From contig JAVBYB010000088.1 in NCBI GenBank assembly GCA_030824255.1, forward strand, positions 1 to 22,217: DNA of 22,217 nt, in the 5' to 3' direction. The notes beneath the pieces are model-generated. The model was not told the DNA's origin and did no database searches. It was given only the letters and a program-made list of their open reading frames with translations. The position numbers were made by a program, and so were the translations under genes. Below are positions 2,169 through 19,534 of the stretch, one piece after another (position 1 is the stretch's first letter; the number at the start of each line of letters is the position of its first letter). The DNA is from a bacterium. GTDB lineage: Bacteria; Pseudomonadota; Alphaproteobacteria; Caulobacterales; Hyphomonadaceae.

Positions 2169-2623
2169 TCGCCGGCCGCCCCCACATGGCAGTCGGGAGT
2201 AGAATGCTCGATGGTCGGACCGAACTGGTCGCGCAGGATGCTGCGGCCCGTCCGGAGCTTGGCAACCATCGCGGCGATGACATTGCGGAAGCGCTCCGAC
2301 CCCCGCGCGTTGACGTCCGCCTTGTCCATCTCCGGAATGTCGGGTGAGACGCTCATCACAAACCGCGTCGTGTGTGCGGTCAGTTCGAACAGCGTCTCCT
2401 GGCCGTGCTCGAGCATGGCGAGCCGCGCCATGATCCGGTCGAGGCGCGCCATCAGGGCGTGATGCTCGCCCTCCTGGCGCGTCGCATCGAAGAAGCGATG
2501 GACGGCATCCTCCAGAACGTCTGACGCACTGCGACCCTGATGCACGGCCAGACGCCGCATCGCGGCGACGAGATCCTGGTTGATGTAGGCGGTGATCTTG
2601 GCGCGCGGCATGAGCTCAGACAT
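2165..2623 (-). CDS. CopG/ribbon-helix-helix family protein of the tra operon
   Basis: This 152-residue protein has a predicted ribbon-helix-helix start at about residues 6-35 (PRAKITAYINQDLVAAMRRL, then GRSASDVLEDAVHRF). A helical region with ARLDRIMARLAMLEHGQE follows and may form a coiled coil. Such genes sit between traG and trbB in many alphaproteobacterial transfer clusters. They are annotated as CopG-family regulators, and their targets are mostly unknown. The chosen ATG at 2623 overlaps the traG stop by eight bases. A second in-frame ATG at 2611 (MPRAKI) is also possible, and neither has a strong ribosome binding site. The stop overlaps the trbB start in ATGA. Confidence 0.82.
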   Translation of the reverse strand: MSELMPRAKITAYINQDLVAAMRRLAVHQGRSASDVLEDAVHRFFDATRQEGEHHALMARLDRIMARLAMLEHGQETLFELTAHTTRFVMSVSPDIPEMDKADVNARGSERFRNVIAAMVAKLRTGRSILRDQFGPTIEHSTPDCHVGAAGE

Positions 2624-4613: not shown

Positions 4614-4954
4614 GCGTTTACGACTCTCATTGCGCAGCGAGCGTTAATCGCAGGGCGCCCCGTGAGGCGCGAAGCTGTCGTGGCGTTACGGGACGCGCCC
4701 GGCGAAGAGACCTCGGATGGACTCGCCGTCTGCGGGAACAGCGGGTTATCGAATTCGCGGTCACCGCACGCTTCGAAGACCGTCCGTACACGGAGGCCGG
4801 ACGAAAAAGCCTGTCTGGTCCGGGGGTTGCACGGATAACACGTTAACGTGGGTAGGGGCCTGTCCATCGCGTCCACTCAGCCAGTGATCTATCTGGCTTA
4901 GGCGCGGCGCGGATTTTTCGCCTCACGTAGTTTACGCGAGGGGGTCGTCAAAAA
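4614..4954. promoter_or_regulatory. Divergent control region between traG and the LysR-type gene
   Basis: These 341 bases hold no convincing gene. They must carry promoters for the minus-strand traG-trb operon and for the plus-strand lysR-like gene. The clearest structure is a perfect palindrome, CACGTTAACGTG, at 4839-4850. It lies about 105 bases before the LysR-type start, so it could be an operator for that regulator or for the nearby ParB-like protein. A purine-rich GAGGGGG at 4938-4944 serves as ribosome binding site for the LysR-type gene. An origin of transfer could also lie here, but I cannot recognise a nick site with confidence. Confidence 0.5.
4839..4850. repeat. Perfect 12-base palindrome (possible operator)
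   Basis: CACGTTAACGTG is its own reverse complement. The symmetry stops at the flanking bases (A on the left, G on the right). It sits between two divergent transfer-module operons, where a dimeric DNA-binding protein would be expected to act. The assignment as an operator is inferred from position and symmetry only. Confidence 0.5.
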
Positions 4955-5923
4955 ATGACGAACGTTGGCGGGGCGAAACTCGACTGGGATCGGCTTAAGG
5001 TCTTCCAGACGGTAGCCGACACGGGAAGCATCAACGCAGCTTCGAAGACGCTCTGCCTCAGCTACGGCAAGGTGTCCAAGGACCTCGAGGAGCTTGAACG
5101 CATGCTCGGACACCAGCTGTTCGAACGATCAAGCCGGGGCCTTGAGTTGACCAATGTCGGCGAAGACATCCTGCGCTCGGCGCGCAACATGGCGGACTCG
5201 GTGCAGTCGATCATCGAGCGCGCCAATGAGAGTGCGCCAGACCATCTCGTCATCTGCGCGCGCGAAGGCATCGCAACCTACTGGCTCGCGCGCCGCATGT
5301 CCGAGCTACTGGCGCTTGAGCCCGATATGAGGGTCTTTCTGAAGGTGCTGCCGACGGCTCCAAACCTCCTTGAAGGCGATGGCGATATCGCCATCCAGTT
5401 CGAAGAACCTGGCGCGAGCAACATCGTCTCACGCCAACTCGGCTGGCTGCACTACATTCTCTACGCAACGCCGGACTATCTGAAGCGCTTCGGTGAACCG
5501 AAGACGATGTCGGATCTCCAGTCGCATCAATGCCTGCGGCTGTCCGGCAAGGAATACCAGCCCTCGAGCTGGCGGCCCGGTGCGGCAGCCTGGGGCGAGA
5601 TTCTGCCCAACGCGATGGAGACTGATACGGGTACTGTGCTCATGGAGGCATGCGCCTCCGGGGCAGGGATTGCTGTTCTGCCGAGCTATGTCTCCGAGTT
5701 CGAGGACCGTGTGGTGCCGCTCCTCGGCATCAAGCCGCTAGGGTCGGTCAAGTTCTGGCTGACCTACACCGAACGCGTCCGCAATCTGCAGGCCAGCCAA
5801 CCGATACTCCATTGGATCAGGTCCTGCTTTGATCCGCGCTACCACGCATGTTTCCGGGAGCTCTATGTGCCGCCCGAGCCGAAACTGTGCCTGCCGGCTG
5901 GATCGCCCAGATCGATGCTTTGA
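4955..5923 (+). CDS. LysR-type transcriptional regulator of the transfer module
   Basis: This 322-residue protein has a LysR-type winged helix-turn-helix at about residues 9-68 (LDWDRLKVFQTVADTGSINA, then SYGKVSKDLEELERMLGHQL and GLELTNVGEDIL). A substrate-binding-like effector domain follows at about 95-300, containing LATPDYL-like and GAGIAVLPSYVSEFE segments. The helix-turn-helix carries a Tyr-Gly in place of the more usual Gln-Pro-Ser or Gln-Ser-Ala, a modest departure. It diverges from traG and is followed after 24 bases by the traF-like gene, so it probably controls transfer genes. The effector is unknown. The start at ATG 4955 has GAGGGGG ten bases upstream. Confidence 0.9.
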   Translation: MTNVGGAKLDWDRLKVFQTVADTGSINAASKTLCLSYGKVSKDLEELERMLGHQLFERSSRGLELTNVGEDILRSARNMADSVQSIIERANESAPDHLVICAREGIATYWLARRMSELLALEPDMRVFLKVLPTAPNLLEGDGDIAIQFEEPGASNIVSRQLGWLHYILYATPDYLKRFGEPKTMSDLQSHQCLRLSGKEYQPSSWRPGAAAWGEILPNAMETDTGTVLMEACASGAGIAVLPSYVSEFEDRVVPLLGIKPLGSVKFWLTYTERVRNLQASQPILHWIRSCFDPRYHACFRELYVPPEPKLCLPAGSPRSML

Positions 5924-5947
5924 GAGATTGAAGGCAAGAGTCACCGC

Positions 5948-6505
5948 ATGGTTGAAGACCTGGGAGGGCCGCGAGGAAGAACGCTTGCACGGGCTCAACC
6001 TGGTCGTGGCTGGATGAAGGCCGGCCTCCTGGCTGTCGCCACACTGGGTGTAGCGGCTTTGGCTCTTCCCGTAGCCGCGGGATCAGCGCAGTTCGTTTGG
6101 AATGCGACCGCCAGCGCTCCAGCGGGACTCTATCGCATCGACCACGAACGATGGCATGTCGGGGATCGCGTCGCCGTGCTTCCCGCCGATATGCTGGCCG
6201 CAGAGCTGGATCGTAGGGGCGTTCTGCCGAGAGGCAAACTTCTCATCAAGCGCGTTGTTGCTGCGGCCGGAGATGCCGTTTGCCGACGTGATGGCACGGT
6301 CCTCGTCAACGACGAGGTTATCGCACAAGCCAAATCGAACGACTCGACAGGAGAGCCGCTTCCATCATGGCAGGGGTGTGCCTCCTTGCACGAGGGCCAG
6401 GTGTTCCTGCTTGGCGATACCGCTGGGTCTTATGATGGGCGGTACTTTGGCGTGACACGGGCAAGCGAGATCATCGGCCGGGCGGAACTGCTGCTGACAT
6501 TCTGA
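5948..6505 (+). CDS. traF: TraF-like S26 family signal peptidase
   Basis: This 185-residue protein has one N-terminal membrane segment at about residues 23-45 followed by a periplasmic S26 peptidase domain. The catalytic serine is probably Ser56 in NATASAPAGLYRI and the general-base lysine Lys101 in LLIKRVVAAAGD. The family's final box is GDTAGSYDGRYFG at about 156-168. In RP4, TraF cleaves and cyclises the TrbC pilin, and the same role is likely here because trbC is in the same module. It follows the lysR-like gene by 24 bases and is probably co-transcribed. The start is not certain: ATG 6014 (residue 23) would also keep the membrane segment and active site. Confidence 0.9.
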   Translation: MVEDLGGPRGRTLARAQPGRGWMKAGLLAVATLGVAALALPVAAGSAQFVWNATASAPAGLYRIDHERWHVGDRVAVLPADMLAAELDRRGVLPRGKLLIKRVVAAAGDAVCRRDGTVLVNDEVIAQAKSNDSTGEPLPSWQGCASLHEGQVFLLGDTAGSYDGRYFGVTRASEIIGRAELLLTF

Positions 6506-6567
6506 CAGTCAGCGACACGTTGAGCAGGCGGGTGTCGACGCCGGTAGGACGCCTGCGCGCTTCTCCT

Positions 6568-6655
6568 CGCCTGTGGCCTGTCGCGTCCGCCGTTCAAGGG
6601 ACGCTGGCGCTCTTCGCCCTTGAGCAGCGGCCTCATGCGACAGGCCGGTGAGGCG
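6568..6655 (+). repeat. Long imperfect inverted repeat upstream of the parB-like gene
   Basis: The left arm (6568-6600) and right arm (6617-6655) can pair around a 16-base loop. The exact core is GGCCTGTCGC at 6575-6584 against GCGACAGGCC at 6637-6646, and a second block of seven matching bases lies at TCAAGGG 6594-6600 against CCCTTGA 6617-6623. It fills most of the 210-base gap between traF and the parB-like gene and ends about 60 bases before the parB start. No U-run follows, so it does not look like a simple terminator. It may be a leader RNA hairpin or a protein-binding site. Confidence 0.65.
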
Positions 6656-6715
6656 GGTCGCGCAGGCGACCCCGATCCGGCGTTCCGCCCTCGGGCATGC
6701 TCAAGGAGCTCATCC

Positions 6716-8644
6716 ATGACTGCTCAAGCTCACTCCATACAGCTGATCGCCCTCAACAAGCTGGTCGCTTCGCCGCGCAATGTTCGCAAGCAGGATCGCA
6801 AGGCCGATCTCGACGCCCTGGCCGCTTCAATTGCCGCTCACGGCCTGCTCCAGAATCTCTGCGTGGTTCCGACCGAGGGAGACAAGTTCGAGGTCGACGC
6901 CGGTGGCCGACGTCTCGCCGCACTGAAACAACTGGCCAGGCAGGGCGTGCTGTCGAAAGATCATCCGGTCCCCTGCCACGTTGTTGCGGCAGAGCGGGGC
7001 ATCGAGGTGTCGCTTGCGGAAAACGTCCAGCGCGTCGCCATGGACGCCATGGATGAGGTTGATGCCTACGCCGCGCTCGTCGCAGAGGGAGCCACGGCAG
7101 ACGATGTCGCCCGCCGATTCGGGGTAACCCGTCGTCACGTCGACCAGCGCCTGGCACTCGCGGGACTGTCGCCCAAAATCAAGACGGCCTGGAAGCGCGG
7201 GGACGTCAGCCTGGAAGCAGCCCGCGCCTTCTGCCTCGTCGAAAGCCATGCCCAGCAAGAGGCCGTGTTCAAGAGTCTGAGCCGGCCGGTGACGCATGCC
7301 GGATCCGTTCGCGCCCGACTGATGGAAGGGCGCATGCGGGCGTCGGATCGTCTGGCGGCGTTTGTCGGGCTTGAAGCCTATGAATGCGCCGGAGGCGTTG
7401 TGGTGCGCGACCTGTTTGATGCTGAAGCCGTCTATGTTGAAAATCCGGCACTGATGGCGGAACTGGCTGAACAGAAGCTCGCCGGCGAGCGCGATAGCTG
7501 GATCGCGCAAGGCTGGGGATGGGTCGAGACAAGCCTTGGTCAGGGCCGCGCCGATAGCGGCTATGCTGTGATGCGCCTTCAGCCTGAATGGCGCGACTAC
7601 ACCGATGACGAAGAGGCCGAACTGACCCGCCTGCGCGACGAACTGGATGCGCTCGACGCCGCACTGGATGAAGACAGCATCGAGGATGATCCGCGCTGGG
7701 ACGCGCGTGACACGCTTGCCGCCTCAATCGAAACCCTGCGTCAGTCAGCCCGGGTCTGGAACGCGGATCTCATCGCACATGCTGGCGTGGTCATCGCGAT
7801 CAATCATGACGGAGAAGCCTATGCCACACTGGGCGTTGTCCGGCAGTCTGATGAGAAGACGATCAAGGACATCCGCAAACGGCTGGAGAGGGCAGAGACC
7901 GGTGATGACGCCGTCATCGATGACGAGGCGGTCGCATCTCCAGAGCCTGAGACTGCCTGCGGTCTCCCAAAGTCCGTGATCCGCGATTTGTCGCTCGCGC
8001 GTTCACGCGCGATACGTCTCCTGCTGGCGCGGGATCGGGAAACTGCTCTTGCCGTGACAGTTGCTGCGATGATCATGCGGACCGTGTTCCGAAGCGAATT
8101 GTCCGGTGTCGGTCTGTCGGCGAGCGCCGCGCATGTCGACGACCTCGAAGCGCTCGTTGAAACGCGCAGCGCAATTATGGCCCATATTCCTGACAATGAG
8201 GACGAGGTGCTCGACTGGTGCCTGATGCAGCCTCCCGAAACACTTCTCTCGGTTCTGGCGGTCATCGCGGCCGATGCCGTCGATCTCGTGCACGAGAAGG
8301 GCGCGCCCTCAGATCATCGCCGTCAGTCACTGGCCGACAGACTGTCGGAGATCCTCGATCTCGACATGCGTGAGTTCTGGAAGGCGGATGCGTCTTACTG
8401 GACACGTCTGCCAAAGGCGGACCTGCTGGTCGCCGTTGCCGAGGCGCCACGATTTTTCGAGCAGAGGGAGCAGTCACGGGAAGCGACATTGAAAGCTTAC
8501 AACAAGCTCAAGAAGGACGAGCTGGCCGCAAAGGTTGGCGAGGCATTGGGAGGAACAGGCTATCTGCCTGATCTTCTGGTTACGCCCGCGCCTGCTGGCG
8601 TCTACGAGCTGACGTCTGCCGGTGTGGCGATTGCTGCCGAGTAA
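6716..8644 (+). CDS. Large ParB-like partition/nuclease-domain protein of the conjugative element
   Basis: This 642-residue protein has an N-terminal ParB domain at about residues 8-100, containing ASPRNVRKQ, AASIAAHGLLQNL and the GGRRLAAL box, and SLAENVQR. A helix-turn-helix follows at about 120-145 (TADDVARRFGVTRRHVDQRL). The remaining 450 residues are acidic and helical and have no motif I can name. It is more than twice the size of ordinary ParB, but large ParB-like proteins of this kind are common beside traF and lysR in alphaproteobacterial elements. No ParA partner is in the window, so classical partition is unproven. The start at ATG 6716 has AAGGAG seven bases upstream. An upstream in-frame extension crosses the inverted repeat and was rejected. 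Confidence 0.88.
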   Translation: MTAQAHSIQLIALNKLVASPRNVRKQDRKADLDALAASIAAHGLLQNLCVVPTEGDKFEVDAGGRRLAALKQLARQGVLSKDHPVPCHVVAAERGIEVSLAENVQRVAMDAMDEVDAYAALVAEGATADDVARRFGVTRRHVDQRLALAGLSPKIKTAWKRGDVSLEAARAFCLVESHAQQEAVFKSLSRPVTHAGSVRARLMEGRMRASDRLAAFVGLEAYECAGGVVVRDLFDAEAVYVENPALMAELAEQKLAGERDSWIAQGWGWVETSLGQGRADSGYAVMRLQPEWRDYTDDEEAELTRLRDELDALDAALDEDSIEDDPRWDARDTLAASIETLRQSARVWNADLIAHAGVVIAINHDGEAYATLGVVRQSDEKTIKDIRKRLERAETGDDAVIDDEAVASPEPETACGLPKSVIRDLSLARSRAIRLLLARDRETALAVTVAAMIMRTVFRSELSGVGLSASAAHVDDLEALVETRSAIMAHIPDNEDEVLDWCLMQPPETLLSVLAVIAADAVDLVHEKGAPSDHRRQSLADRLSEILDLDMREFWKADASYWTRLPKADLLVAVAEAPRFFEQREQSREATLKAYNKLKKDELAAKVGEALGGTGYLPDLLVTPAPAGVYELTSAGVAIAAE

Positions 8645-8871: not shown

Positions 8872-8897
8872 TGAGGGATTTGGTCTTAGGCTGCGTA
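8872..8897 (+). promoter_or_regulatory. Candidate ECF sigma promoter of copA
   Basis: TGAGGG (8872-8877) is followed by 16 bases and then CGTA (8894-8897), inside the octamer GCTGCGTA at 8890-8897. The same octamer with a similar upstream box and identical spacing occurs before copC and before the cnrY-like gene. The spacing and the CGTA box fit ECF-type promoters. The octamer ends 57 bases before the copA ATG. Confidence 0.55.
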
Positions 8898-8915
8898 CTG
8901 TTCTCAATAGCGAAG

Positions 8916-8931
8916 TCGCGCGATCGCGCGA
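8916..8931. repeat. Perfect 16-base palindrome in the copA leader
   Basis: TCGCGCGATCGCGCGA equals its own reverse complement. It lies between the candidate promoter and the copA ribosome binding site (AGGAG at 8944-8948). It could be an operator. In RNA it could fold as a six-pair hairpin with a GAUC loop, just ahead of the ribosome binding site. Confidence 0.55.
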
Positions 8932-8954
8932 TACATTCTGATCAGGAGTTGCGG

Positions 8955-10766
8955 ATGGGTGACGAGGCAGCGAGAGGTCTTGGCCGGCGCCAGTTTCTGG
9001 TCGGGACGGCCATCGCAGGCGTTGCCATCACCGCTGGGCCCACTGCCTGGGCGCAAAAGCTTCCCTCAGCGGTCGAGAAACCGGAAACACTCTCGGGCTC
9101 AGATATCCACCTGACGATCGGCCATGGTGCGATCACGATCGACGGCAGGACGGGGCACGCAATCACCATAAACGGAACCGTTCCCGGCCCGATCATCCGG
9201 CTCAAGGAAGGTCAGACTGTTCGCCTGCATATCACCAACACTCTTGAGGAGGACACGTCGATCCACTGGCACGGGCTCCTGGTGCCGTTCGAAATGGATG
9301 GCGTGCCCGGCGTCAGCTTTCCCGGAATTCGGCCTGGCGAGACTTTCACGTACGAATTTCCCGTGAAGCAGTCGGGTACCTACTGGTTCCACAGTCACTC
9401 CGGCCTGCAGGAGCAGGAGGGACATTATGCAGCGATGATCATCGATCCTGCAGGTCCCGATCCGGTCGCCTATGACCGCGAGCACGTGATCTTGCTGTCC
9501 GACTACAGCTTCATCCACCCGCACGTCATAGCCCAGAAGCTCAAGCAGGAAGCCGGCGTCTTCAATTTTCAGAAGCAGACCATCGCAGGGCTCCTGGCTG
9601 GCAAGGACCAGTCGCTGACAGAGCGCATGGAATGGGCCCGTGAGCTCATGGATCCGACCGACATCTCGGACGTGACCGGGGCCGTCTATACATTCCTCGT
9701 CAATGGTCGCGGACCCACCGACAACTGGACCGGGCTCTTCGCGCCGGGTGAGCGCGTCCGTCTGCGCTTTATCAACGCCGCAGCGCAGACCATTTTCAAT
9801 GTGCGCATTCCCGGACTAAAGCTTAGCGTCGTTGCAACCGACGGACAGAATGTGCGTCCGGTCACGGTTGACGAGTTCCAGATCGGTAACGCCGAGACGT
9901 ATGACGTCATCATCACGCCGACCGAAGATCGGGCCTTCACGCTGGTTGCTGAGGCCGTCGATCGTTCGGGGATGGCGCGCGCAACGCTTGCGCCACGCCT
10001 TGGCATGACAGCGGAAGTCCCGCCACTACGGGAGCGCCCTCTCGGCACGATGAAAGACATGGGCATGGCGCACGACATGGGCGGCATGACCGGGTCGGTG
10101 CACGCCGGCCACACCGATATGGCTGCGATGGCAGTACCTGGCATGGCCGCGCCACGCGTACGTGGTTCGGATGTCATGGGCGACATGGCCGGAATGGAGG
10201 GCATGGACATGTCCATGCGCAACTGGATGAACGCCCCGCAGGTCGACCTCGGACCGGGTGTGCAGTCACTTGCACCCATGCCAATGGATCGCACCGGAGA
10301 AACGGGGCAGGGTCTCGAAAGCGTCGGCCATCGCGTACTCGTCTACAGGGATCTCATCGCGCTTGAACCCAACGCCGACACGCGCGCGCCATCGCGCGAA
10401 CTGGAAATCCGCCTCACTGGCAACATGGAACGCTTCATGTGGGGCTTCGACGGCAAGAAGTTCTCCGACAAGCCGGCGCCCTATGCTTTCCGCAAGAACG
10501 AACGTGTCCGTGTCAGTCTCGTCAACGACACGATGATGGCGCATCCCATTCACCTGCATGGACATTTTTTCGAGCTGGCGCAGAGAGCCCCGCTTGGCCA
10601 TATGCCGCGCAAGCACACGGTGATCGTCGCTCCGGGCGGCATCGTGAAGTTCGATTTCACGGCCGAACCTGGCGACTGGGCCTTCCACTGCCACATGCTT
10701 TACCACATGCATGCCGGGATGTTTCAGGTCTTCACTGTGCGTCCGCTTGATGGGGCTGCCGCATGA
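8955..10766 (+). CDS. copA: CopA multicopper oxidase (periplasmic copper resistance)
   Basis: This 603-residue periplasmic protein oxidises Cu(I) and/or binds copper. A twin-arginine signal (RRQFLVG, residues 11-17) ends near AWAQ (34). The four copper-binding segments of multicopper oxidases are complete: HWHG (104-107), HSHSG (146-150), HPIHLHGH (530-537) and HCHMLYHMHAGM (578-589), which includes the type 1 Cys and an axial Met. A Met/His-rich insert at about 366-425 is the typical copper-loading region of PcoA/CopA. The start at ATG 8955 has AGGAG six bases upstream, and longer frames lack a signal peptide. The stop overlaps the copB start (ATGA). A CnrH-like sigma factor may drive it, judging from the promoter motif. 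Confidence 0.96.
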   Translation: MGDEAARGLGRRQFLVGTAIAGVAITAGPTAWAQKLPSAVEKPETLSGSDIHLTIGHGAITIDGRTGHAITINGTVPGPIIRLKEGQTVRLHITNTLEEDTSIHWHGLLVPFEMDGVPGVSFPGIRPGETFTYEFPVKQSGTYWFHSHSGLQEQEGHYAAMIIDPAGPDPVAYDREHVILLSDYSFIHPHVIAQKLKQEAGVFNFQKQTIAGLLAGKDQSLTERMEWARELMDPTDISDVTGAVYTFLVNGRGPTDNWTGLFAPGERVRLRFINAAAQTIFNVRIPGLKLSVVATDGQNVRPVTVDEFQIGNAETYDVIITPTEDRAFTLVAEAVDRSGMARATLAPRLGMTAEVPPLRERPLGTMKDMGMAHDMGGMTGSVHAGHTDMAAMAVPGMAAPRVRGSDVMGDMAGMEGMDMSMRNWMNAPQVDLGPGVQSLAPMPMDRTGETGQGLESVGHRVLVYRDLIALEPNADTRAPSRELEIRLTGNMERFMWGFDGKKFSDKPAPYAFRKNERVRVSLVNDTMMAHPIHLHGHFFELAQRAPLGHMPRKHTVIVAPGGIVKFDFTAEPGDWAFHCHMLYHMHAGMFQVFTVRPLDGAAA

Positions 10767-11767
10767 ACCGGTATCTCCTCCTGATCGCCCTTTCTCTTGG
10801 TGGCGCGGCTCCGGCCCTCGCTCAGCACGAAGGCCATGGTGCGCCACAAACACCGGCTCCCCCAACGCCTGCGCCCCCAACGCCTGCGCCAAAGACCCCA
10901 GGGCCGCAACAGCAACCCGCAGCGCCTGCCGAACCACACGCACAGCACGATCACGGCGACAAACCCGCCGCTACTGCGCCGGACCAGCATGCTGGCCACG
11001 AGATGGCCGAGGAGGCCGTTGATCCGCCGGAAGCGGGCAATGATGTACCGCCCGACGCGCCAGCCGAATTTGCGGCCGACCGCTTCTTTGGTGTGGACGA
11101 TATGAACCGGGCGCGCGGCATCCTGCGCGACGAGCATGGCGGCGCTCTCACTTACAAGATCATGGGCGACATGATCGAGTATCGCAGCCAGGACGGCGAG
11201 GATGGCTATGCCTGGAATGGCGAGGCATGGTTCGGCGGCGACATCGATCGACTTGTCATCAAGACGGAAGGCGAGGGTGACGAGGAGGTCGAGAGCGCAG
11301 AGATTCAGGCGCTCTATTCGCGCGCCTGGGATCACGTCACTGACCTTCAGATTGGCATCCGGCAGGACATCGAACCCAATCCTTCGCGCACCTACCTCGC
11401 GCTCGGCTTTGAGACGGTTCTGCCTTACTGGTTCGAGGTGGAGGGAGCGCTGTTCGTCGGTCAACGCGGCCAGGTGCTTGGACGACTCGACGGAAACTAC
11501 GATTTCCGACTGACGCAGCGCCTCGTCCTCCAGCCGCGCGCCGAGGTGAATTTCGCCGCCCGGGACGATGCTGCCATTGGTCTTGGCTCCGGCCTCTCCG
11601 ACGCGGAGCTTGGCCTGCGTCTCCGCTACGAGTTTCAGCGCGAGTTCGCCCCCTACATTGGGGTATCGTGGGAACGCAAGTTCGGGGACACTGCCGACTA
11701 TGCGCGGGCCGACGGAGAGAGCGCGGAGACGGCGAGCTTCGTCGTCGGCCTGCGGGCGTGGTACTGA
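10763..11767 (+). CDS. copB: CopB outer-membrane copper resistance protein
   Basis: This 334-residue protein has a signal peptide (MNRYLLLIALSL to about ALAQ, residue 21) and then a long Pro/His-rich low-complexity region (about 22-95) with HEGHG, HAQHDHGD and HAGHE clusters. A CopB/PcoB domain follows at about 105-334, rich in alternating beta-strand patterns and ending in the aromatic residue expected of an outer-membrane barrel (GLRAWY). It is translationally coupled to copA through an ATGA overlap. CopB is thought to bind copper and act at the outer membrane with CopA. The Pro-rich part includes two perfect 15-base direct repeats. Confidence 0.95.
   Translation: MNRYLLLIALSLGGAAPALAQHEGHGAPQTPAPPTPAPPTPAPKTPGPQQQPAAPAEPHAQHDHGDKPAATAPDQHAGHEMAEEAVDPPEAGNDVPPDAPAEFAADRFFGVDDMNRARGILRDEHGGALTYKIMGDMIEYRSQDGEDGYAWNGEAWFGGDIDRLVIKTEGEGDEEVESAEIQALYSRAWDHVTDLQIGIRQDIEPNPSRTYLALGFETVLPYWFEVEGALFVGQRGQVLGRLDGNYDFRLTQRLVLQPRAEVNFAARDDAAIGLGSGLSDAELGLRLRYEFQREFAPYIGVSWERKFGDTADYARADGESAETASFVVGLRAWY
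10861..10890 (+). repeat. Two perfect tandem 15-base repeats inside copB
   Basis: CCCAACGCCTGCGCC occurs at 10861-10875 and again at 10876-10890. It keeps the reading frame and encodes part of the PTPAPPTPAP linker. Such a repeat can expand or shrink by slippage and so change the linker length. Confidence 0.9.
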
Positions 11768-11797
11768 CGAGCGGCCTGGACGAGATTGGAGCGTGGC

Positions 11798-12286
11798 ATG
11801 ACCTGTAGTCGCATTCGCTGGATTCTGGCGGCATCGCTTCTGACATCGATACACGCTGTCGCCACGGCGCAGACCATCGATGCGCCGTTGGTGGCGCCCA
11901 TGTCGTCAGAAGCGCAGCAGGCCGCGAAGGCGGTTGACGCCTTTCATGCCAAACTTTCTGGAGGTGATGGCGTCGCCGCCGCGGCGCTACTTGCTGACGA
12001 TGCGCTGATCTTCGAGAGCGGCCATGCCGAACGGTCGCGGGCCGAGTACGCTTCGCATCATGCTGGCGCAGATGCCGCCTATGCAGCGGCTATTCCATCA
12101 AGGCTCACGCATCGGGCCGGCTTTGTCGAGGGCGACACGGCCTGGATCGTCAGCGAAAGCCGCGCGACAGGAACGTACAAGGACAAGCCCGTTGATCGCG
12201 TGACCACCGAAACGATGATCCTGCGCAAGGCTGCCGAAGGCTGGCGCATCGCTCATATTCACTGGTCGTCGCGCGCCGCGAAGTAA
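11798..12286 (+). CDS. Exported SnoaL/DUF4440-like (NTF2-fold) protein
   Basis: This 162-residue protein has a signal peptide ending near AVATAQ (about residue 25). An NTF2-like domain follows: AAKAVDAFHAKLSGGD, AALLADDALIFESGHAERSR and a C-terminal TYKDKPVDRVTTETMILRKA, then GWRIAHIHWSSR. Sequence and length fit the SnoaL-like or DUF4440 group, whose role in metal resistance is unclear. Small proteins of this type occur next to cop genes. It lies 30 bases after copB and is likely the last gene of the copAB operon. GGAG six bases before ATG 11798 decides the start over an upstream TTG at 11786. It converges on the sigma gene with only seven bases between the stops. Confidence 0.82.
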   Translation: MTCSRIRWILAASLLTSIHAVATAQTIDAPLVAPMSSEAQQAAKAVDAFHAKLSGGDGVAAAALLADDALIFESGHAERSRAEYASHHAGADAAYAAAIPSRLTHRAGFVEGDTAWIVSESRATGTYKDKPVDRVTTETMILRKAAEGWRIAHIHWSSRAAK

Positions 12287-12293
12287 TTGCCTT

Positions 12294-12869
12294 TCAAGAT
12301 TCATCGACATCAACGCCACCGGCCTTGAGGGCTTCTGCAAGCAGCTTGCGCGCGCGGTAGACGCGGGTTTCGACGGCCTTGGCCGAAATTCCGAGCGCCT
12401 CGCCAGCCGCCGCTTGAGACAAGCCTTCAAATGCCGTGAGGAGCAGAGGCTCCTTGAGCTGGCCAGGCAGTGCCGCGATCGCGCGGTCGAGACGGGTCAG
12501 CGCGGCCTCATTGGCGTCGTCTGTGCTCGCTTCCGACGCCGCAGCGGTTTCATCAAGGGCTCGAGCACCATAGAAGAACCGCCGCACGACCCGGCGGCGT
12601 CCCCAGTCCCGGCACTTGTTGAGCGCGATCCGACGAAGCCATGTGGCTGCCGGACGCGACGGATCATATCGCCCGAGCGCCTGCCAGGCCGAAACGAAGG
12701 ATTCCTGAAGGAGATCATACGCTTCATCTGCATCGCCGACATACCGGCGGATGAAGCGGTAGAGCGGTTCCTGGTGGCGCCGGACGATATGGTTGAAGGC
12801 GGAACGATCGCCCTTAAGGGCGCGCGCCGCCAGCATGGCGTCGCTATCATCCGGGTTGGCGCCGCTCAT
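12294..12869 (-). CDS. ECF RNA polymerase sigma factor (CnrH-like)
   Basis: This 191-residue sigma factor of the extracytoplasmic-function type has only regions 2 and 4. Region 2 spans about residues 20-90 (LYRFIRRYVGDADEAYDLLQ and ESFVSAWQALGRYDP). Region 4 spans about 120-180 (AIAALPGQLKEPLLLTAFEG, then SQAAAGEALGISAKAVETRV). It directs RNA polymerase to a small set of stress promoters. It is the last gene of a three-gene unit (anti-sigma, sensor, sigma) in the same order as cnrYXH of Cupriavidus metallidurans, and its ATG overlaps the sensor stop (ATGA). Likely targets are the three promoters sharing GCTGCGTA. The cnrH symbol is withheld because true orthology is not shown. Confidence 0.92.
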   Translation of the reverse strand: MSGANPDDSDAMLAARALKGDRSAFNHIVRRHQEPLYRFIRRYVGDADEAYDLLQESFVSAWQALGRYDPSRPAATWLRRIALNKCRDWGRRRVVRRFFYGARALDETAAASEASTDDANEAALTRLDRAIAALPGQLKEPLLLTAFEGLSQAAAGEALGISAKAVETRVYRARKLLAEALKAGGVDVDES

Positions 12870-13306
12870 TTGGCGTCGGCGGTCAACGCCTCGCCGATCC
12901 TGTCGTCGAACTGCCTGCGCTGTTCCGGGGTGAGCACTTTGCGCATGGCGAAGACGTGCGCGATTGTCTCCGTCTGAAGCGTGCCCATGGCATCGTGAAA
13001 GTGATGCACGGCCGCCTCGACGGCTGGTCCTGCGGTCTCGCTTGCACGGATTGCGGCGGCCAGCTCAGCATTGGCCTCGCGCATCTCGCCTTCCAGCGCC
13101 AGACGACGGCCGGCGAAATCAGTCTCCAAGGCGTCGAGCGCCCGTTCCTGCTCGGGCGTCAGCGAAAGTTCATTGTGCACCATCGCGTGCAGGGACTGGT
13201 CGTGAGCCGGGGCGGTAAGCAACTGGTGCCCAAGCCACATGCCGCCGATGCCCGCCAAGAAGGCGAGAACAACAGTGATGATGGCGCTGCGAACCGAAAC
13301 CTTCAC
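12866..13306 (-). CDS. Periplasmic heavy-metal sensor (CnrX-like)
   Basis: This 146-residue protein has an N-terminal membrane anchor at about residues 7-25 and a helical periplasmic domain. His40, His44, Glu61, His117 and Met121 lie at the same mutual spacing as the metal ligands of CnrX (His42, His46, Glu63, His119, Met123), a constant offset of two. CnrX senses nickel or cobalt in the periplasm and signals through CnrY to free CnrH. The start is GTG 13306, chosen because it overlaps the stop of the upstream anti-sigma gene (GTGA) and because a longer frame would bury the membrane anchor. Its stop overlaps the sigma gene. Confidence 0.88.
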   Translation of the reverse strand: MKVSVRSAIITVVLAFLAGIGGMWLGHQLLTAPAHDQSLHAMVHNELSLTPEQERALDALETDFAGRRLALEGEMREANAELAAAIRASETAGPAVEAAVHHFHDAMGTLQTETIAHVFAMRKVLTPEQRRQFDDRIGEALTADAK

Positions 13307-13578
13307 TCGGAAGGCTCCAGGAGGGTTGACGGCGCAAGACTGGACCAGGCGGAAAATGGGGATGTTGAGGGGGCCACAGCCGATGCCGTCGAGGCGCTGA
13401 CGGCAGCGCCTCCCATGACCAGAAGGCCCATAACCGCCGCACGCAGCCGCCATGTCTGGCCGGTGATCGCCGCGCGCTCGGCCAGCGTCTCGTTGACCTC
13501 GACGGTAAGGCCGCCAAGATCACGGTCTGGGGGCTGCCGGTGCAATTCTGTCAGCAGGTGTTCAAGGTTAGGCGACAT
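13303..13578 (-). CDS. Small membrane anti-sigma factor (CnrY-like)
   Basis: This 91-residue protein has a cytoplasmic N-terminal part of about 45 residues, one membrane helix at about 47-63 (RLRAAVMGLLVMGGAAVSAS) and a short periplasmic tail (SPFSAWSSLAPSTLLEPSE). The size, the single helix and the position as first gene before a CnrX-like sensor and an ECF sigma factor all match CnrY, which holds the sigma factor at the membrane until metal is sensed. The assignment is mostly from context, because anti-sigma factors of this kind are short and diverge quickly. GGGAG lies about six bases before ATG 13578. Its stop overlaps the sensor start (GTGA). Confidence 0.75.
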   Translation of the reverse strand: MSPNLEHLLTELHRQPPDRDLGGLTVEVNETLAERAAITGQTWRLRAAVMGLLVMGGAAVSASTASAVAPSTSPFSAWSSLAPSTLLEPSE

Positions 13579-13613
13579 GCCGATCTCCCAATACGTCCGT
13601 CCCTTCCAGTCTA

Positions 13614-13639
13614 TACGCAGCGACGACCGAATTCACGCA
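13614..13639 (-). promoter_or_regulatory. Candidate ECF sigma promoter of the cnrYXH-like unit
   Basis: Read on the minus strand, TGCGTG (13639-13634) is followed by 16 bases and then CGTA, inside GCTGCGTA (13621-13614). The octamer and spacing are identical to those before copA and copC, while the upstream box matches TGAGGG at four of six positions. It ends 35 bases before the cnrY-like ATG and would give autoregulation of the unit. Confidence 0.5.
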
Positions 13640-13732
13640 GGGATTGGACAGCCTCTTGATTTCGAGCGGCCAGCGGCATGATCGAGATAGATCCATGTGT
13701 GGCCCGCCTTGATGCGGATCGCTGCGCGCCAG

Positions 13733-14584
13733 TTATCCGGCGGGGGCGCCAATCGTGGTGGCCGCGGAGACAGCGATTATAGCCGCCGCAAACAACGTCG
13801 CTTCGCACAGCAGCGCAACGCGTAGCCACTTCTTACCGGTGGCCGGAGCAGCTGCAACCTTTGCTGTGATGACCTGCTTGTTGAGCGCGCCAACGCCTAT
13901 CGCGATGATCCCAATCGCGAGTTTGGCGAGCAATAGAAGCCCGTAGGTTGTGACGAGAAGTTTCTCGCCCCCTTCGGTAAGCATCCACGCAAGCCAGATG
14001 CCCAAGGCGATCAAGACCGGGATGGCCGCGACGGCGATTGTGCTGAAACGGTGGAGACGGCTGGTAAGCCGAGCACTGTCCAGCGTTGAACCTGGATAAA
14101 GGCTGATCGGAGCAGCGACCCAGAAGCCCGCGATCAAGACATGCGCGGCGACCATTATGGGCGCAAGGCCGGGATCGGTCAGTCCCTGCGCATGGCCCGT
14201 GAGGCCGAAGCCAACACTGAGCGCTGCTGCGCCGAGACCGGCGACGACCCGTGAGCCGAACCACACTCCGGCGATGGAGGCAACAGCGCCTACAAGGATC
14301 GCGAGCGTCGAGTTGCCAAGAACCAACCACGCCAGCGGCATCAGTTCAGGGTCGAGGAAATTCCCACCATCCCCCATCTGCGCGACGAGGATGCCAAGAC
14401 GAACCGCTGTGAAGAAGGCCAGAGCGGCGCCGGTCAGGGCAATACGGGACCGCAGACCCCGAAATGAATCGCGCTCCAAGACGCCTGAAGCGGCATGGAG
14501 CGCGAAACCGATCGTCAGGAGCGAAAAAAGATTGAGACCGATCCGGTCAGCGAACTGCAGAAATGACAGTTCGTCCCCGATCAC
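13733..14584 (-). CDS. copD: CopD inner-membrane copper resistance protein
   Basis: This 283-residue integral membrane protein has about eight hydrophobic segments, including LFSLLTIGFALHAASGV, LAWLVLGNSTLAILVGAVAS, IMVAAHVLIAGFWVAAPISL and LLLLAKLAIGIIAIGVGALN. The AHVLIAGFWVAA segment and the later HRFST motif are typical of the CopD/PcoD family, which moves copper across the inner membrane together with CopC. The start lies four bases after the copC stop, so the two are one translational unit. The region between its stop and the cnrY-like gene (154 bases) holds the promoter of the next unit. Confidence 0.93.
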   Translation of the reverse strand: MIGDELSFLQFADRIGLNLFSLLTIGFALHAASGVLERDSFRGLRSRIALTGAALAFFTAVRLGILVAQMGDGGNFLDPELMPLAWLVLGNSTLAILVGAVASIAGVWFGSRVVAGLGAAALSVGFGLTGHAQGLTDPGLAPIMVAAHVLIAGFWVAAPISLYPGSTLDSARLTSRLHRFSTIAVAAIPVLIALGIWLAWMLTEGGEKLLVTTYGLLLLAKLAIGIIAIGVGALNKQVITAKVAAAPATGKKWLRVALLCEATLFAAAIIAVSAATTIGAPAG

Positions 14585-14588
14585 GGTG

Positions 14589-14945
14589 CTACTGGCCCGT
14601 TACCGTGAAACGCACGGCGCCTGGCATGGCATGGCCGTCCTTAGCCATCGATTTCCACGACAGCGTGTAAGAGCCTTTGGCGAGCGTCGGCAGCGGGACT
14701 ATGAACTCCTTGCCCATCGTCTTTGAAGGCTTAAAATCGACCGCGATCATCTTCTTGTCCGCCGTCATCAGCATGAGGCTGGTGATGGCGCTCTCGTGCT
14801 GGAATGTCACTTTGAATTCGGCCGGTGCCTGCACCAGGCTGGCCTTGTCGTGGATGCTGGTTTCCATCATGCCGCCGTGGGCGAAGGCGGGCGATGCGCC
14901 CAGAAGAGCCGCCGCCAGCATGAGAGTCAGAAGCTTGTTTTTCAT
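14589..14945 (-). CDS. copC: CopC periplasmic copper-binding protein
   Basis: This 118-residue protein has a signal peptide ending at AFA (residue 22), so the mature protein begins with His23, the N-terminal copper ligand of CopC proteins. Other CopC features are SIHDKASLVQAPAEFKVTF at about 30-48 and the C-terminal DGHAMPGAVRFTV, whose His completes the Cu(II) site. A Met-rich stretch (SLMLMTADKKMIAV) may bind Cu(I). CopC carries copper in the periplasm and hands it to CopD, whose gene follows directly. It is transcribed on the minus strand, 84 bases after the P-type ATPase, and has its own ECF-like promoter. Confidence 0.95.
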   Translation of the reverse strand: MKNKLLTLMLAAALLGASPAFAHGGMMETSIHDKASLVQAPAEFKVTFQHESAITSLMLMTADKKMIAVDFKPSKTMGKEFIVPLPTLAKGSYTLSWKSMAKDGHAMPGAVRFTVTGQ

Positions 14946-15002
14946 AGGATGCTCGTTGATCTAGCCGCAGATTTTGTGCGGCGGGGAGGGGGTCATACAT
15001 AA

Positions 15003-15028
15003 TACGCAGCTTATGGGCGGAACCCTCA
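15003..15028 (-). promoter_or_regulatory. Candidate ECF sigma promoter of copCD
   Basis: On the minus strand TGAGGG (15028-15023) is followed by 16 bases and CGTA within GCTGCGTA (15010-15003). Both boxes and the spacing equal those before copA, and the octamer again ends 57 bases before the start codon. The upstream box begins two bases after the stop codon of the ATPase gene, so copCD would be transcribed independently of it. Confidence 0.55.
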
Positions 15029-15029
15029 C

Positions 15030-17537
15030 CTAGGGCTTCGCCCCGGGAACACTAGTGGGAGCTGGCGCCAGTTGGGTTTGGGGCGCAAGCGTAGGCTTCG
15101 GATGCGGTCCGGGCGCCTCGCTTGGCGGCGTGGCCCCCAGCCGCAGCGAGTTCACGATTACCGATACCGAGGACAACGCCATGGCGAGCGCCGCGATCAT
15201 TGGGGACAGCAGCTGACCCGTGATCGGATAAAGGAGGCCAGCGGCAACAGGGATCCCGAGGGCATTGTAGCCGAACGCAAAAACCAGATTCTGCCGGATG
15301 TTCGCCATTGTCGCGCGCGACACAGCCCGGCCTTTCACAACCCCGCTGAGATCGCCCCGGAGCAATGTGACGCCAGCGCTTTCGATGGCGACATCCGTGC
15401 CGGTGCCCATGGCGATCCCAACATCAGCTGCCGCAAGCGCGGGCGCGTCGTTGACGCCGTCTCCTGCCATCGCAACGATGCGGCCTTCTCGCTTGAGTCG
15501 CTCGACGATCCGCGATTTGTCTTCAGGCAGGACTTCTGCCTCGACATTCGTGATGCCCAGTGTCCGACCGACAGCCTCCGCCGTCGTGCGATTGTCTCCG
15601 GTCAACATGACCAGTTCGATGCCCTGGCTGCGCAGCGCCTTGAGCGATTCAGGCGTCGTCGCCTTGATCCGGTCAGCAATGCCCAGAACACCAGCCAGTC
15701 CGCCCTCGATGGCAACAAAGATGGCCGTGACGCCATCCGCGCGCAGGCGTTCTGCTTCGGAGCGAAGAGATGATGTCGCGATGCCGAGTTCATCCAGATA
15801 GCGTTCGGCGCCAAGCGCGACGGTCTTGCCTTCGACTTTGCCGATGACGCCCTTGCCTGTCGGCGAGTCGAACTCGGTCGGTTCGACCAGGGAGATGCCA
15901 CGTTCCTTCGCAGCTGCCACCACGGCAAGCGCCAGTGGATGCTCGCTGCGCTGCTCGAGACTTGCTGCAGCGTGCAGGAGGTCAGCTTCCACTAACCCCG
16001 CAACAGTCTTGATTGCAACGACGCCGGGCTTGCCCTCGGTCAGCGTGCCCGTCTTGTCCAGGACCAGCGTGTTGACCTTTTCAAAGCGCTCCAGCGCTTC
16101 GGCGTTGCGGATCAGGACGCCCTGACGTGCTGCCCGACCGACGCCCGCCATGATCGACATGGGGGTGGCGAGGCCAAGCGCACACGGACATGCGATGATC
16201 AGGACGGAGACGGCAGCTATCAGTCCATAGGTGAAAGAGGGCTGCGGCCCGAACACCCACCAGCCAATGAACGCAAGGACGGCGATAGCGATCACAGCTG
16301 GCACAAACCAGCCTGATACCTTGTCCGCGAGGCGCTGGATCGGCGCGCGGCTACGCTGCGCGTCAGCAACCAACTGCACGATCTGCGACAGCATCGTGTC
16401 GCGGCCTACGCGTTTTGCTTCGATGACGAGAGCGCCGGTTTGATTGAGGGTCCCGGCAATGACGGCGTCACCGACGCCCCGCGTGACGGGCATGGATTCG
16501 CCGGTCACCATGGACTCATCGACCGTCGAGCGCCCGTCGATGACAACGCCGTCGACCGGCGTCTTCTCGCCCGGACGGACACGCAACCGATCGCCGACCA
16601 TGATTGCATCAAGCGGTACTTCGGCTTCATCGCCATCGCTGATGCGCCGTGCGGTCTTGGGAGCAAGGTCAAGCAGGGCGCGAATGGCCCCGCCCGTGCG
16701 CTCGCGAGCGCCTAGCTCCAGAACCTGCCCGAGTAGCACAAGCACTATAATGACGGCAGCCGCTTCAAAGTAGACAGAGACATCGCCGTGGGGGCCGCGG
16801 AATTCTGGCGGAAAGGCCGACGGGAAGAGCAGGGCGACCACGCTGTAAGTCCATGCCACGCCCGTGCCGAGCGCAATCAGCGTGAACATGTTGAGGCTAC
16901 GGTTGACGAGCGAAGCATAACCCCGCTCGAAGAACGGCCAACCTGCCCAAAGGACTACCGGTGTCGCGAGGCCAAACTGGATCCACGCATTGATATTCGG
17001 AGGTACAAGAGCATCGACGTTGAATAAGTGACGGCCCATTTCCAGCACGAGAACTGGTAGTGCGAGCGCAAGACCCACCCAGAAGCGACGCGACATGTCG
17101 GCGAGCTCGGGGTTCGGCCCTGCTTCGGCCGTCGGCATCATCGGCTCGAGCGCCATTCCGCAGATCGGGCAGGAGCCCGGGCCATCCCGCACAATCTCCG
17201 GATGCATTGGGCAGGTCCATTTCGCGCCGGCAGGAGCGGGAATTGCCGCAGGTGTCAGGGACGGCGTGTGTGAATGCTGGTGGTGATGACGGCTCCCAGC
17301 ATCCTGACCGCCAACGTGTGCATCCTTGGAGCCATCTGCGGAGCAGCAGCTGTGTTCGGATTTGGTGGCCGGCTTCAGATATCGACCAGACTCGGCCTGG
17401 AACTTCGTCTTGCAGCCCGCGCTGCAAAACAACACCTCGTGGCCGTCATGCGTTGTGCGATGGGGCGTATCCGCCTTCACCGTCATACCGCAGACCGGAT
17501 CCTTGAGTTCGTTTCCTTCAGGGTGGGTATGCGCCAT
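15030..17537 (-). CDS. Copper-translocating P1B-type ATPase with YHS and CPMHPE N-terminal domains
   Basis: This 835-residue inner-membrane pump probably exports Cu(I). The N-terminus has a YHS domain (DPVCGM at residues 13-18, to about 55), a His/Cys-rich linker (HSCCSAD, HHHQHSH) and a heavy-metal-binding segment ([15 protein letters not shown], 107-128). The core has TGES (345-348), the transport motif CPC (450-452), the phosphorylation site DKTGT (494-498), SEHP (531-534) and GDGVND (692-697). There is no GMTCxxC HMA domain, which is replaced by the YHS/CPMHPE arrangement. It diverges from the csoR-like gene, and CsoR operators overlap its promoter. GGAGGG lies four bases before the ATG. 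The C-terminal 25 residues are a Pro-rich tail. Confidence 0.94.
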
Positions 17538-17996: not shown

Positions 17997-19319
17997 TCAA
18001 AGAAAATACACAGGGGCGAAACCGCCGCCTTCAGTGCGGAAATTTGTCGTTTGGCCTTGGTAGAGTCGAGCCGCCGCCAACAGCAGCTTTCCCTCATAGG
18101 TATAGAGGCGCACGTCGATCTTTCTTGGCAGCGGCGCATCGCCGATCTTCACGAGGCGTTCGGTGGGTGGGGCGATGTCCTGTGCGATGTACTCGGAGAC
18201 GAGTATCTCGGACCAAACCGATTTCGTCAGCTTGTCGCCGCGATAGACCGCTTTGCCCCCGTGGCCCGCAACCGGTTTGAAGAACAAACCTTTGCGCTGG
18301 GACCATAGTTGCCCAGCGTTGTCGTGTGTGACGTGAATCGCCTTGGGAATAGATGCCAGCGTCTGGATGGCATCAGGCGCAACGGCCCAGCCGCGCAATT
18401 GGTCCACATCCGATAGTAGCACCAGATTTCGCTTGTCGGCGAACAGTGCGTGCGTGCGGGGGTTGGGCGTCACCACGACAGCGCCATCAAGATAGGCATC
18501 GCGCAGTGTCTTGTGGCGCTCCTCGGTGAGTGAGAAATCAACCAGGCGATTGTAGACAAGATCCACGACGGTTTCGCCTGCACGAAGCTTTCCACCCACG
18601 TAGGAAAGTTCTGCTGGATCGGCTATTATGGTCGAGACACCCTCAGCTTCAAGCAGCTGCCGGGCCAGCAGGAACTCGGGATAGAGATACTGCGCCGTTG
18701 GCGCATCATCGATGATCGCGACGGTCTGGGGCCGCCCCGCGCCACGCTGCCGCCGCCACTCGCTCTCAAACATCGTGACCACGGCCTCGTCAAACCCTCC
18801 CACGGTCGTACCCTTCTTGAGCGGTTCGACTATGTCGCAACAGGCCAGCTGCGCACGCGCACTGAAGGCATTCAAAAAAGCGCCGCCGGCGTTCGTGTTG
18901 ATTTCGATGAGGCGAGGCGCCTCTGAACCAAGATGAAAATCGTATCCCATGAATGCGCCGGCCGGACCAAAATCGCGCAGCGCAATATCAGGCGCCCACT
19001 TCAATACGGCATCGATGTAGGCGGGGAGCCGGGCGGTTTTCTCGATCGCGAGCACGATTGCCAGCATCGCGTCACGATCGGACTCCGGCAGGAACACCGG
19101 CACATTCGCGAACAGATGAGGCCGGCTCACAATATGGGTCGCGTAAAAATCAGGAACAGCAGCAACCGCCTGCATCGCCGTTGCCAAAGCGTGGCGGTCG
19201 AGCGTGATGCAGAAGCAGCTGCGATTCAACTCGTTTGCAAGTTCTCGCGCGCGAGCGACGGAGTCGCCCGGCGGGCAGCCGGTGGATTGGCACGAAATAG
19301 GGGGGACGCTGTCAGTCAA
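17997..19319 (-). CDS. ATP-grasp-like enzyme of unknown substrate
   Basis: This protein of about 440 residues resembles glutathione-synthetase-type ATP-grasp enzymes. A central segment with GAFMGYDFHLG and LIEINTNAGGAFLNAF (about residues 138-152) carries the Glu/Asn metal-ATP ligands, and a second part contains KGLFFKPVAGHGGKAVYRGD and a late RKIDVRLYTYEGKLLLAAAR. The order suggests a permuted or duplicated grasp fold. I do not recognise the exact family and cannot give a substrate; a ligase joining an amino acid or peptide is the general expectation. The start is TTG 19319, picked because AGGAGG lies nine bases upstream and no ATG fits. It converges on the csoR-like gene and diverges from the Met-rich lipoprotein. 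Confidence 0.72.
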   Translation of the reverse strand: MTDSVPPISCQSTGCPPGDSVARARELANELNRSCFCITLDRHALATAMQAVAAVPDFYATHIVSRPHLFANVPVFLPESDRDAMLAIVLAIEKTARLPAYIDAVLKWAPDIALRDFGPAGAFMGYDFHLGSEAPRLIEINTNAGGAFLNAFSARAQLACCDIVEPLKKGTTVGGFDEAVVTMFESEWRRQRGAGRPQTVAIIDDAPTAQYLYPEFLLARQLLEAEGVSTIIADPAELSYVGGKLRAGETVVDLVYNRLVDFSLTEERHKTLRDAYLDGAVVVTPNPRTHALFADKRNLVLLSDVDQLRGWAVAPDAIQTLASIPKAIHVTHDNAGQLWSQRKGLFFKPVAGHGGKAVYRGDKLTKSVWSEILVSEYIAQDIAPPTERLVKIGDAPLPRKIDVRLYTYEGKLLLAAARLYQGQTTNFRTEGGGFAPVYFL

Positions 19320-19534
19320 GTCGCGCGCCCTCCTGTGCGGTGAATAACGCCTACAAGATTGTGTCGCGTCAAAGACCGTGAGCTTGATCCAACGCAAGAC
19401 ATTGTCCAGCTCTTATTGCGCATGCTTCGCCATAGCTTGCTTGGAGCAGCACCAGAGGTTCGGACGCCACGATGTGCCTCATTTCAGGCGTTCTGTACTT
19501 GCCCACCCACCGGCGGACCTAAGGGAGAATAACC
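19320..19534. promoter_or_regulatory. Divergent promoter region, ATP-grasp gene and Met-rich lipoprotein gene
   Basis: These 215 bases must start both genes. AGGAGG (19329-19334) on the minus strand and GGGAG (19523-19527) on the plus strand are the ribosome binding sites. I found no copy of the GCTGCGTA octamer and no TACCC-N5-GGGTA site here. Confidence 0.5.

Follow-up and report, generated by a model that had tools for sequence, protein, structure and literature searches.

The window analysed here is a stretch of 22,217 nucleotides from a bacterium of the Hyphomonadaceae (contig JAVBYB010000088.1), in which a cluster of copper genes surrounds a unit encoding a CnrH-like extracytoplasmic function (ECF) sigma factor, a CnrX-like periplasmic sensor and a CnrY-like candidate anti-sigma factor. 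One bipartite, promoter-like element precedes copA, copC and the cnrYXH-like unit, and these three sites, which are predicted to be promoters read by the CnrH-like sigma factor, are the subject of the analysis. Coordinates and the matches on which the assignments rest are listed in Table 1.

The three regulatory genes are arranged in the order Y-X-H and overlap at 13306-13303 (Y/X) and 12869-12866 (X/H). The best solved relative of the sigma factor is CnrH (4cxf, E = 1.5e-32), the next giving E = 1.8e-20, and within the source genome (an assembly of 3.34 Mb, 73% complete) its next relative is just 34% identical. The sensor, analysed as 12866-13312 with its start at 13306 read from the sequence, has NccX and CnrX as its best solved relatives. 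Scans of the CnrY-like protein against Pfam and NCBIfam gave no match; its length fits CnrY, and it contains one hydrophobic stretch, as judged by eye, and a C-terminal LAPSTLL.

Table 1. Genes and predicted promoters of the copper cluster, with positions in the window.
Feature	Position	Strand	Basis
copA promoter (predicted)	8872..8897	+	-35-type TGAGGG(AT) 8872-8877; -10-type TGCGTA 8892-8897; fits 204-site consensus
copA, periplasmic Tat (twin-arginine translocation)-type multicopper oxidase	8955..10766	+	TIGR01480, E 3.1e-240
copB, outer membrane copper protein	10763..11767	+	Pfam CopB, 1.8e-84
SnoaL/DUF4440-like protein, 3' of copAB	11801..12286	+	Pfam SnoaL_3, 1.1e-10 (scanned as 11786-12286)
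CnrH-like ECF sigma factor, 191 amino acids	12294..12869	-	Pfam Sigma70_r2 and Sigma70_r4_2
CnrX-like periplasmic metal sensor	12866..13306	-	Pfam Metal_resist, 8.5e-22; GTG start
CnrY-like anti-sigma candidate, 91 amino acids	13303..13578	-	Position; weak alignment with CnrY
cnrY-like promoter (predicted)	13614..13639	-	-35-type TGCGTG(AATT) 13639-13634; -10-type TGCGTA 13619-13614
copD, inner membrane copper protein, after copC	13733..14584	-	Pfam CopD, 1.6e-14
copC, periplasmic copper-binding protein	14589..14945	-	Pfam CopC, 7.1e-17
copC promoter (predicted)	15003..15028	-	-35-type TGAGGG 15028-15023; -10-type TGCGTA 15008-15003
Copper-type P-type ATPase	15030..17537	-	TIGR01511, E 1.8e-181

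An exact search located the 8-mer GCTGCGTA at 8890-8897 (+), 13621-13614 (-) and 15010-15003 (-) and nowhere else in the window, in agreement with a preliminary description of this DNA; shuffled versions of the window held 0.48 copies on average, and three copies were reached in 1 of 100 shuffles. The distances from CGTA to the start codon given in that description also followed from the coordinates, being 57 bases for copA (ATG 8955), 35 for the cnrY-like gene (ATG 13578) and 57 for copC (ATG 14945). At all three sites a second box was confirmed exactly 16 bases upstream of CGTA, TGAGGG before copA and copC and TGCGTG before the cnrY-like gene, and TGNGNG-N16-CGTA has exactly three matches in the window, all at these sites. 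The complete sites read TGAGGGATTTGGTCTTAGGCTGCGTA (copA), TGCGTGAATTCGGTCGTCGCTGCGTA (cnrY-like gene) and TGAGGGTTCCGCCCATAAGCTGCGTA (copC). A single base separates the copC promoter box from the stop codon at which the P-type ATPase gene ends (15003-15030), and the window scan, with three sites in all, found none of this kind before the ATPase gene itself.

For comparison, 80 named loci with the sigma factor were collected from one query scan, the nearest being mostly from Hyphomonadaceae assemblies. The set includes near-duplicates (L082/L083, L130/L132) and several loci from one assembly (e.g. L068/L070, L069/L071, L072/L074), and it overlaps the 398 genomes described below. A copA relative is present in 70 of these loci, copB in 68, a CnrX-like gene in 78 and an ATPase relative in 43. 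TGAGGG and CGTA were found at N16 173 times, against 0-7 times at each of the other spacings from 6 to 30; anagrams of TGAGGG gave 0-4 and anagrams of CGTA 0-9 matches. The consensus of 204 distinct sites (T or C first) is (T/C)GAGGG(A/G)T-N12-(T/C)GCGTA(T), with spacer and flanks nearly uninformative, as a promoter would predict. This profile rules out the 8-mer GCTGCGTA as the true box: of the shared box first proposed, the TGCGTA part was retained, as (T/C)GCGTA, and the preceding GC, which carries little information over the 204 sites, was dropped.

Of the 76 loci with DNA long enough for the test (the other 4 of the 80 being too short), 67 have a site in front of the cnrY-like gene, 600-950 bases upstream of the start of the sigma gene (54 strict, 10 of the window's own-clade variant and 3 relaxed), and 9 have none there. 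Among the controls, four scrambled or shifted patterns had no hit and one relaxed pattern had a single hit. Among the closest loci, the window included, the copC site TGAGGG-N16-CGTA is kept in 11/11 aligned rows and the copA site (T/C)(G/A)AGGGAT-N14-CGTA in 10/10; several gene starts in these alignments were taken from alignment ends or adjusted by hand, and L066, L073 and L076, having no gene start, were excluded from the copA footprint. The earlier suggestion that the geometry fits an ECF sigma promoter is thus borne out by the fixed spacing of 16 over the 80 loci, and by near-identity to the CnrH promoters of plasmid pMOL28 detailed at the end of the text.

The motif recurs in many related bacteria carrying this sigma factor. 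Using a threshold of E <= 1e-30 with the window's sigma factor, 398 genomes of the order were divided into 136 sigma-positive and 262 sigma-negative ones. TGAGGG-N15-GCGTA sites amounted to 3.34 per genome in the former and 0.71 in the latter (rank test 4e-36, relatedness uncorrected), the reversed control giving 0.62 and 0.55, respectively. Upstream of copA the same association was seen: within 450 bases, the strict motif is present in 11/30 sigma-positive loci and 0/30 sigma-negative loci (Fisher 3e-4), and a relaxed pattern in 13/30 of the positive ones. This comparison sampled 60 of the 136 positive genomes, own genus excluded, and 80 of the 262 negative ones, with 30 loci per group out of 59 (positive) and 86 (negative) matches listed. 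Seven of the positive copA loci fall below 60% CopA identity, two of which carry the strict site. Many sigma-positive copA genes follow the sigma gene in one operon, so a promoter of their own may be needless. These lines of support, namely spacing, the 398 genomes, the copA comparison and pMOL28, come from partly overlapping genome sets.

Together the 80 loci and the window hold 232 sites, of which 65 precede the cnrY unit (54 ordinary and 11 variant, a class set solely by position before the sigma gene), 45 copA, 36 a copC-type gene and 16 a CusF-like gene; 67 are other or unassigned and 3 are the window's own. Downstream genes were picked by a script favouring conserved frames, with some wrong frames, in cluster 8 especially. 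Ten representative targets gave Pfam matches to CopC, CusF, DUF305, DUF411, PepSY, DUF6152, an acyltransferase, two methyltransferases and an outer membrane efflux protein; targets of sites in further genomes included CopA, CopC and a copper chaperone, PCuAC. At 32 places in sigma-positive genomes, ten proteins were scanned and identified as CopA, CopC, CusF, PepSY, an acyltransferase and two methyltransferases, three having no family; several of the other 22 places fall within long reading frames and resemble chance matches. For 21 sites in sigma-negative genomes the analysis covered the frame context. The P-type ATPase was rejected as a target, as no assigned downstream gene matched the window's ATPase, though 43/80 loci have a relative of it. 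In several Caulobacter-type loci (e.g. L079, L080 and L082) a site likewise is located after the ATPase gene and before an acyltransferase gene. In L079, L080, L087, L089 and L094 a CusF-like gene with its site stands back to back with a cnrY-like gene that lies far from the sigma gene. One 26-base site (TGAGGGGACCACAGCGTTGGTGCGTA) is shared without change by L154, L158, L159, L162 and L201, preceding a 341-residue frame in L154, L162 and L201; the L154 frame has no Pfam family.

The best reading of these sequences is a well-supported sigma regulon, of the CnrYXH kind but rebuilt as a copper regulator of periplasmic genes. The three sites are very probably ECF-type promoters read by the CnrH-like sigma factor, through which a periplasmic metal, likely copper, would induce copA-copB-SnoaL, copC-copD and the cnrYXH-like unit. 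The sequences themselves establish the class of promoter, its fixed geometry and conservation, its association with sigma presence across genomes, and the copper nature of the largest target classes; how the response is triggered, by which metal, through what release step, with sigma binding and in which direction, we infer as follows. A periplasmic metal, most likely copper to judge from the targets, would bind the CnrX-like sensor, upon which the CnrY-like anti-sigma factor would release the sigma factor, as in the CnrYXH model (PMC7689651, PMC9045368; here and below, statements on cited papers refer to their accessible parts). RNA polymerase with the sigma factor would then start transcription about 8 bases past CGTA, switching on copA-copB-SnoaL and copC-copD and, via its deviant copy, the cnrYXH-like unit as well. 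By analogy with cnrYp and cnrCp, transcript starts are predicted at about 8905 (copA), 13606 (cnrY-like gene) and 14995 (copC). Of the local regulon initially proposed, the copA/copC part is upheld by the sigma association over the 398 genomes and by the copA comparison; self-activation stands less firmly, as discussed below.

Several observations weigh against this reading. No site was found in 12 of the 136 sigma-positive genomes, and at least three sites were found in 10 of the 262 sigma-negative ones; in one of the latter, G184, contig ends carry pieces of the sigma gene, and the same stretch holds the motif. In six others of these ten, the motif is absent from the 3.5 kb around the best distant sigma gene, namely in G017 (41% identity) and in G011, G060, G154, G254 and G303 (33-36%). 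In identity to the window's CopA, the positive loci (56-77%) partly exceed the negative ones (54-62%), and the P-values are not corrected for phylogeny while the loci and genomes are related and overlapping. Over eight close genomes, the looser form YGAGGG-N14-YGCGTA matched 41 times and its reversed control 25 times, so that a lone remote site can be a chance match. Finally, the window's clade shares a deviant -35 box (TGCGTGAA) at the cnrY site, and copper is not proven by the sensor, because its ligand positions are those of a nickel/cobalt sensor.

Specificity within the source genome depends on the form of the pattern. TGNGNG-N16-CGTA, which the preliminary description had put forward for a scan of the whole replicon, occurs at chance level (60 matches versus 130 for the reversed control) and is therefore without specificity by itself; among the 60 matches, TGAGGG is read only at the window's copA and copC sites. 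TGAGGG-N15-GCGTA gave 2 matches, both in the window, with 0 for the reversed control, and YGAGGG-N14-YGCGTA gave 3 against 3, its additional match lying on a different contig, where no convincing gene follows it. Six further sites were found in the source and close genomes, three of them before copA, copC and PCuAC genes, one before an unclear frame and two without a convincing gene, the source genome's own third site being among these two.

Of the three promoters, the self-activating one is the least certain, because the -35 box of the cnrY site differs and this difference is conserved in the clade. TG(C/G)GTGAA-N14-CGTATAGA precedes the cnrY-like gene in 12/12 aligned rows, window included, with GAGGG absent, and GCGTATAGA follows the deviant box at a fixed distance in 12/12 closest-locus rows. 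The deviant box is at 13634-13639 in the window and at the same place in L066-L075 and L077, copA and copC keeping AGGG-type boxes. In eight close genomes TGSGTGAA-N14-CGTA gave 19 matches, 12 of which have the AATT/AAAT form; 11 of these 12 begin 769-784 bases before a sigma gene of this kind, which ties the variant box to the regulatory unit, and the twelfth, 1.3 kb past a copC promoter, is at the edge of its contig. The remaining seven matches have GAAGG or GAAGC and are located elsewhere. The variant might weaken self-activation, serve a second sigma factor or form a mixed promoter. The cnrY site in this clade could conceivably be read by something other than the sigma factor, the conserved CGTATAGAC serving a housekeeping or double promoter, an alternative that we regard as doubtful yet worth serious consideration. 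It would account for the conservation of TG(C/G)GTGAA in all 12 rows and for TAGA at +1 to +4 past CGTA in 11/11 variant sites, these positions being mixed in the 54 ordinary cnrY sites, and cnrY of pMOL28 has an RpoD promoter as well (PMC9045368). On the other hand, the variant retains the 16-base spacing and (T/C)GCGTA, it occupies the position where other lineages have TGAGGG, and pMOL28 cnrC, a CnrH promoter, likewise reads CGTATAGAG.

The five metal-ligand positions of CnrX, H42, H46, E63, H119 and M123, are all kept in 68/79 aligned sensor rows, the window's included. When sensors were tabulated against copA and copB, excluding L126 and L076 (no CnrX-like hit) and L138 (cut), both genes were absent from the available DNA of all five loci whose sensors are without both H42 and H119 (L095, L100, L117, L120 and L137) and from 4/72 other loci, three of which (L066, L107 and L118) have DNA that ends less than 1 kb past the sigma gene. 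In L105, L106, L108, L109 and L122, Met123 is replaced by Leu or Val, the other ligands being kept and copA present. L095, L117, L120 and L126 lack copAB and have sites before DUF6152-like genes, and their scored sensors are without CnrX ligands; the signal sensed in this branch may be other than a metal.

With promoters and sigma factor as described, the inducer might still be nickel, cobalt or a broad metal signal, the copper genes forming part of a wider response. The sensor retains all five CnrX ligand positions, and nickel/cobalt signalling in CnrX requires Met123 (PMC7689651). Such an inducer is nevertheless unlikely, as copper proteins make up the largest of the assigned target classes (CopA, CopC, CusF-like and, once, PCuAC, with 67/232 sites other or unassigned), some copA-linked sensors have Leu or Val for Met123, and CnrC-like genes are found in just 6/80 loci (at E 1e-10) and not in the window.

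It is very improbable that the motif belongs to another regulator, be it a two-component cop box or another ECF sigma factor. The ten genomes with at least three sites and no close sigma factor would suit this explanation, but site number tracks sigma presence over the 398 genomes, none of the 30 copA loci without the sigma factor carries a site, and the layout is a -35/-10 pair at a single spacing, the same as in CnrH promoters. Chance resemblance, in line with the chance-level count of the degenerate pattern (60 versus 130), is practically negligible, being excluded by the spacing scan (173 at N16 versus 0-7) and opposed by the conserved footprints, the 204-site consensus and the 11/30 versus 0/30 copA loci.

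Beyond the window, we favour, with some reserve, a broader view in which a branch of the CnrH family would have taken on general control of periplasmic copper genes in Caulobacterales, Sphingomonadales and their plasmids. It would act through one promoter, (T/C)GAGGG(A/G)T-N12-(T/C)GCGTA, on dispersed genes for copper oxidases, chaperones, DUF305, DUF411, PepSY and acyltransferase proteins, the cytoplasmic copper ATPase being left to other regulators and the self-activating promoter being rewired in the window's clade. A sensor of the CnrX kind on copper genes would, if true, mean that a nickel/cobalt sensor architecture has been redirected to copper. The sharp promoter model would allow regulon prediction in many Alphaproteobacteria, and the poorly understood DUF305, DUF411, DUF6152 and acyltransferase proteins are placed under probable metal control.

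Next to the copper genes, positions 1158-8644 carry conjugation-type genes, encoding a T2SSE-family ATPase, a TraG-type coupling protein, an S26 peptidase and a ParB-like protein; because these adjoin the copper cluster, it probably resides on a plasmid or an integrated element. CnrX-like genes are present on 79 plasmid records, Cupriavidus ones included. A 466-residue frame at 17997-19397 has no match in Pfam or NCBIfam. Among the 80 loci, binning errors are suspected for L073, L082 and L143, whose titles name Bradyrhizobium, Verrucomicrobiales and Myxococcota: L073 has the layout of the closest clade, and L082 shares its gene coordinates with the Caulobacteraceae locus L083.

Copper oxidase operons are generally regarded as being under two-component control, CopRS/PcoRS controlling copABCD, the same kind of targets. 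A scan of 17 window proteins, a set that leaves some frames uncovered, revealed no two-component gene, and the control proposed here is by a sigma factor. In the literature consulted, the sigma factors linked to copper are CorE, SigF and RpoQ. CorE of Myxococcus xanthus is an ECF sigma factor tied to a multicopper oxidase and a copper ATPase and senses copper itself via a Cys-rich C-terminal extension (PMC10141476), whereas the window's sigma gene adjoins separate genes for a sensor and an anti-sigma candidate. Membership of the CorE type was rejected for the window's sigma factor, which has one Cys in 191 amino acids and no Cys-rich C-terminal extension. SigF-NrsF of Caulobacter crescentus, a related alphaproteobacterium, comprises an ECF sigma factor that is induced by copper; SigF controls other genes (DUF692, DoxX and others), pcoAB is up only in stalked cells in M2G, and the term 'cnr' is absent from the accessible text of that paper (PMC8224329). 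A search of the accessible literature, which takes in few subscription journals and not the main paper on ECF classification, found no description of the CnrX-type copper regulon.

CnrYXH of Cupriavidus metallidurans pMOL28 likewise has the order Y-X-H with overlaps, a sigma factor of the CnrH kind and a CnrX sensor with the five ligand positions, the window's sensor being 33% identical to CnrX. Its promoters, in the upstream stretches CGAGGGGAAGCATCGACCTGGTCCGTATAGAG (cnrC) and AAGGGGGAGTCCTTCGCGCAGCCGTATAAGAG (cnrY), are nearly the same, with GAGGGG-N16-CGTATAGAG for cnrC and AAGGGG-N16-CGTATAAG for cnrY (CGTATA). The hexamers GAGGGG and AAGGGG lie 16 bases before CGTA, and compared with TGAGGG-N16 the G run in pMOL28 is therefore shifted by one base towards the -10 box. 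CnrH-dependent transcripts start 25 (cnrC) and 24 (cnrY) bases ahead of the genes (PMC9045368); as the end of CGTA is 33 and 32 bases from the respective gene, transcription begins about 8 bases past CGTA. The two systems differ in their targets, which in pMOL28 are the CnrCBA efflux pump and in the window, as predicted from the promoters, copAB, copCD and other periplasmic copper genes.

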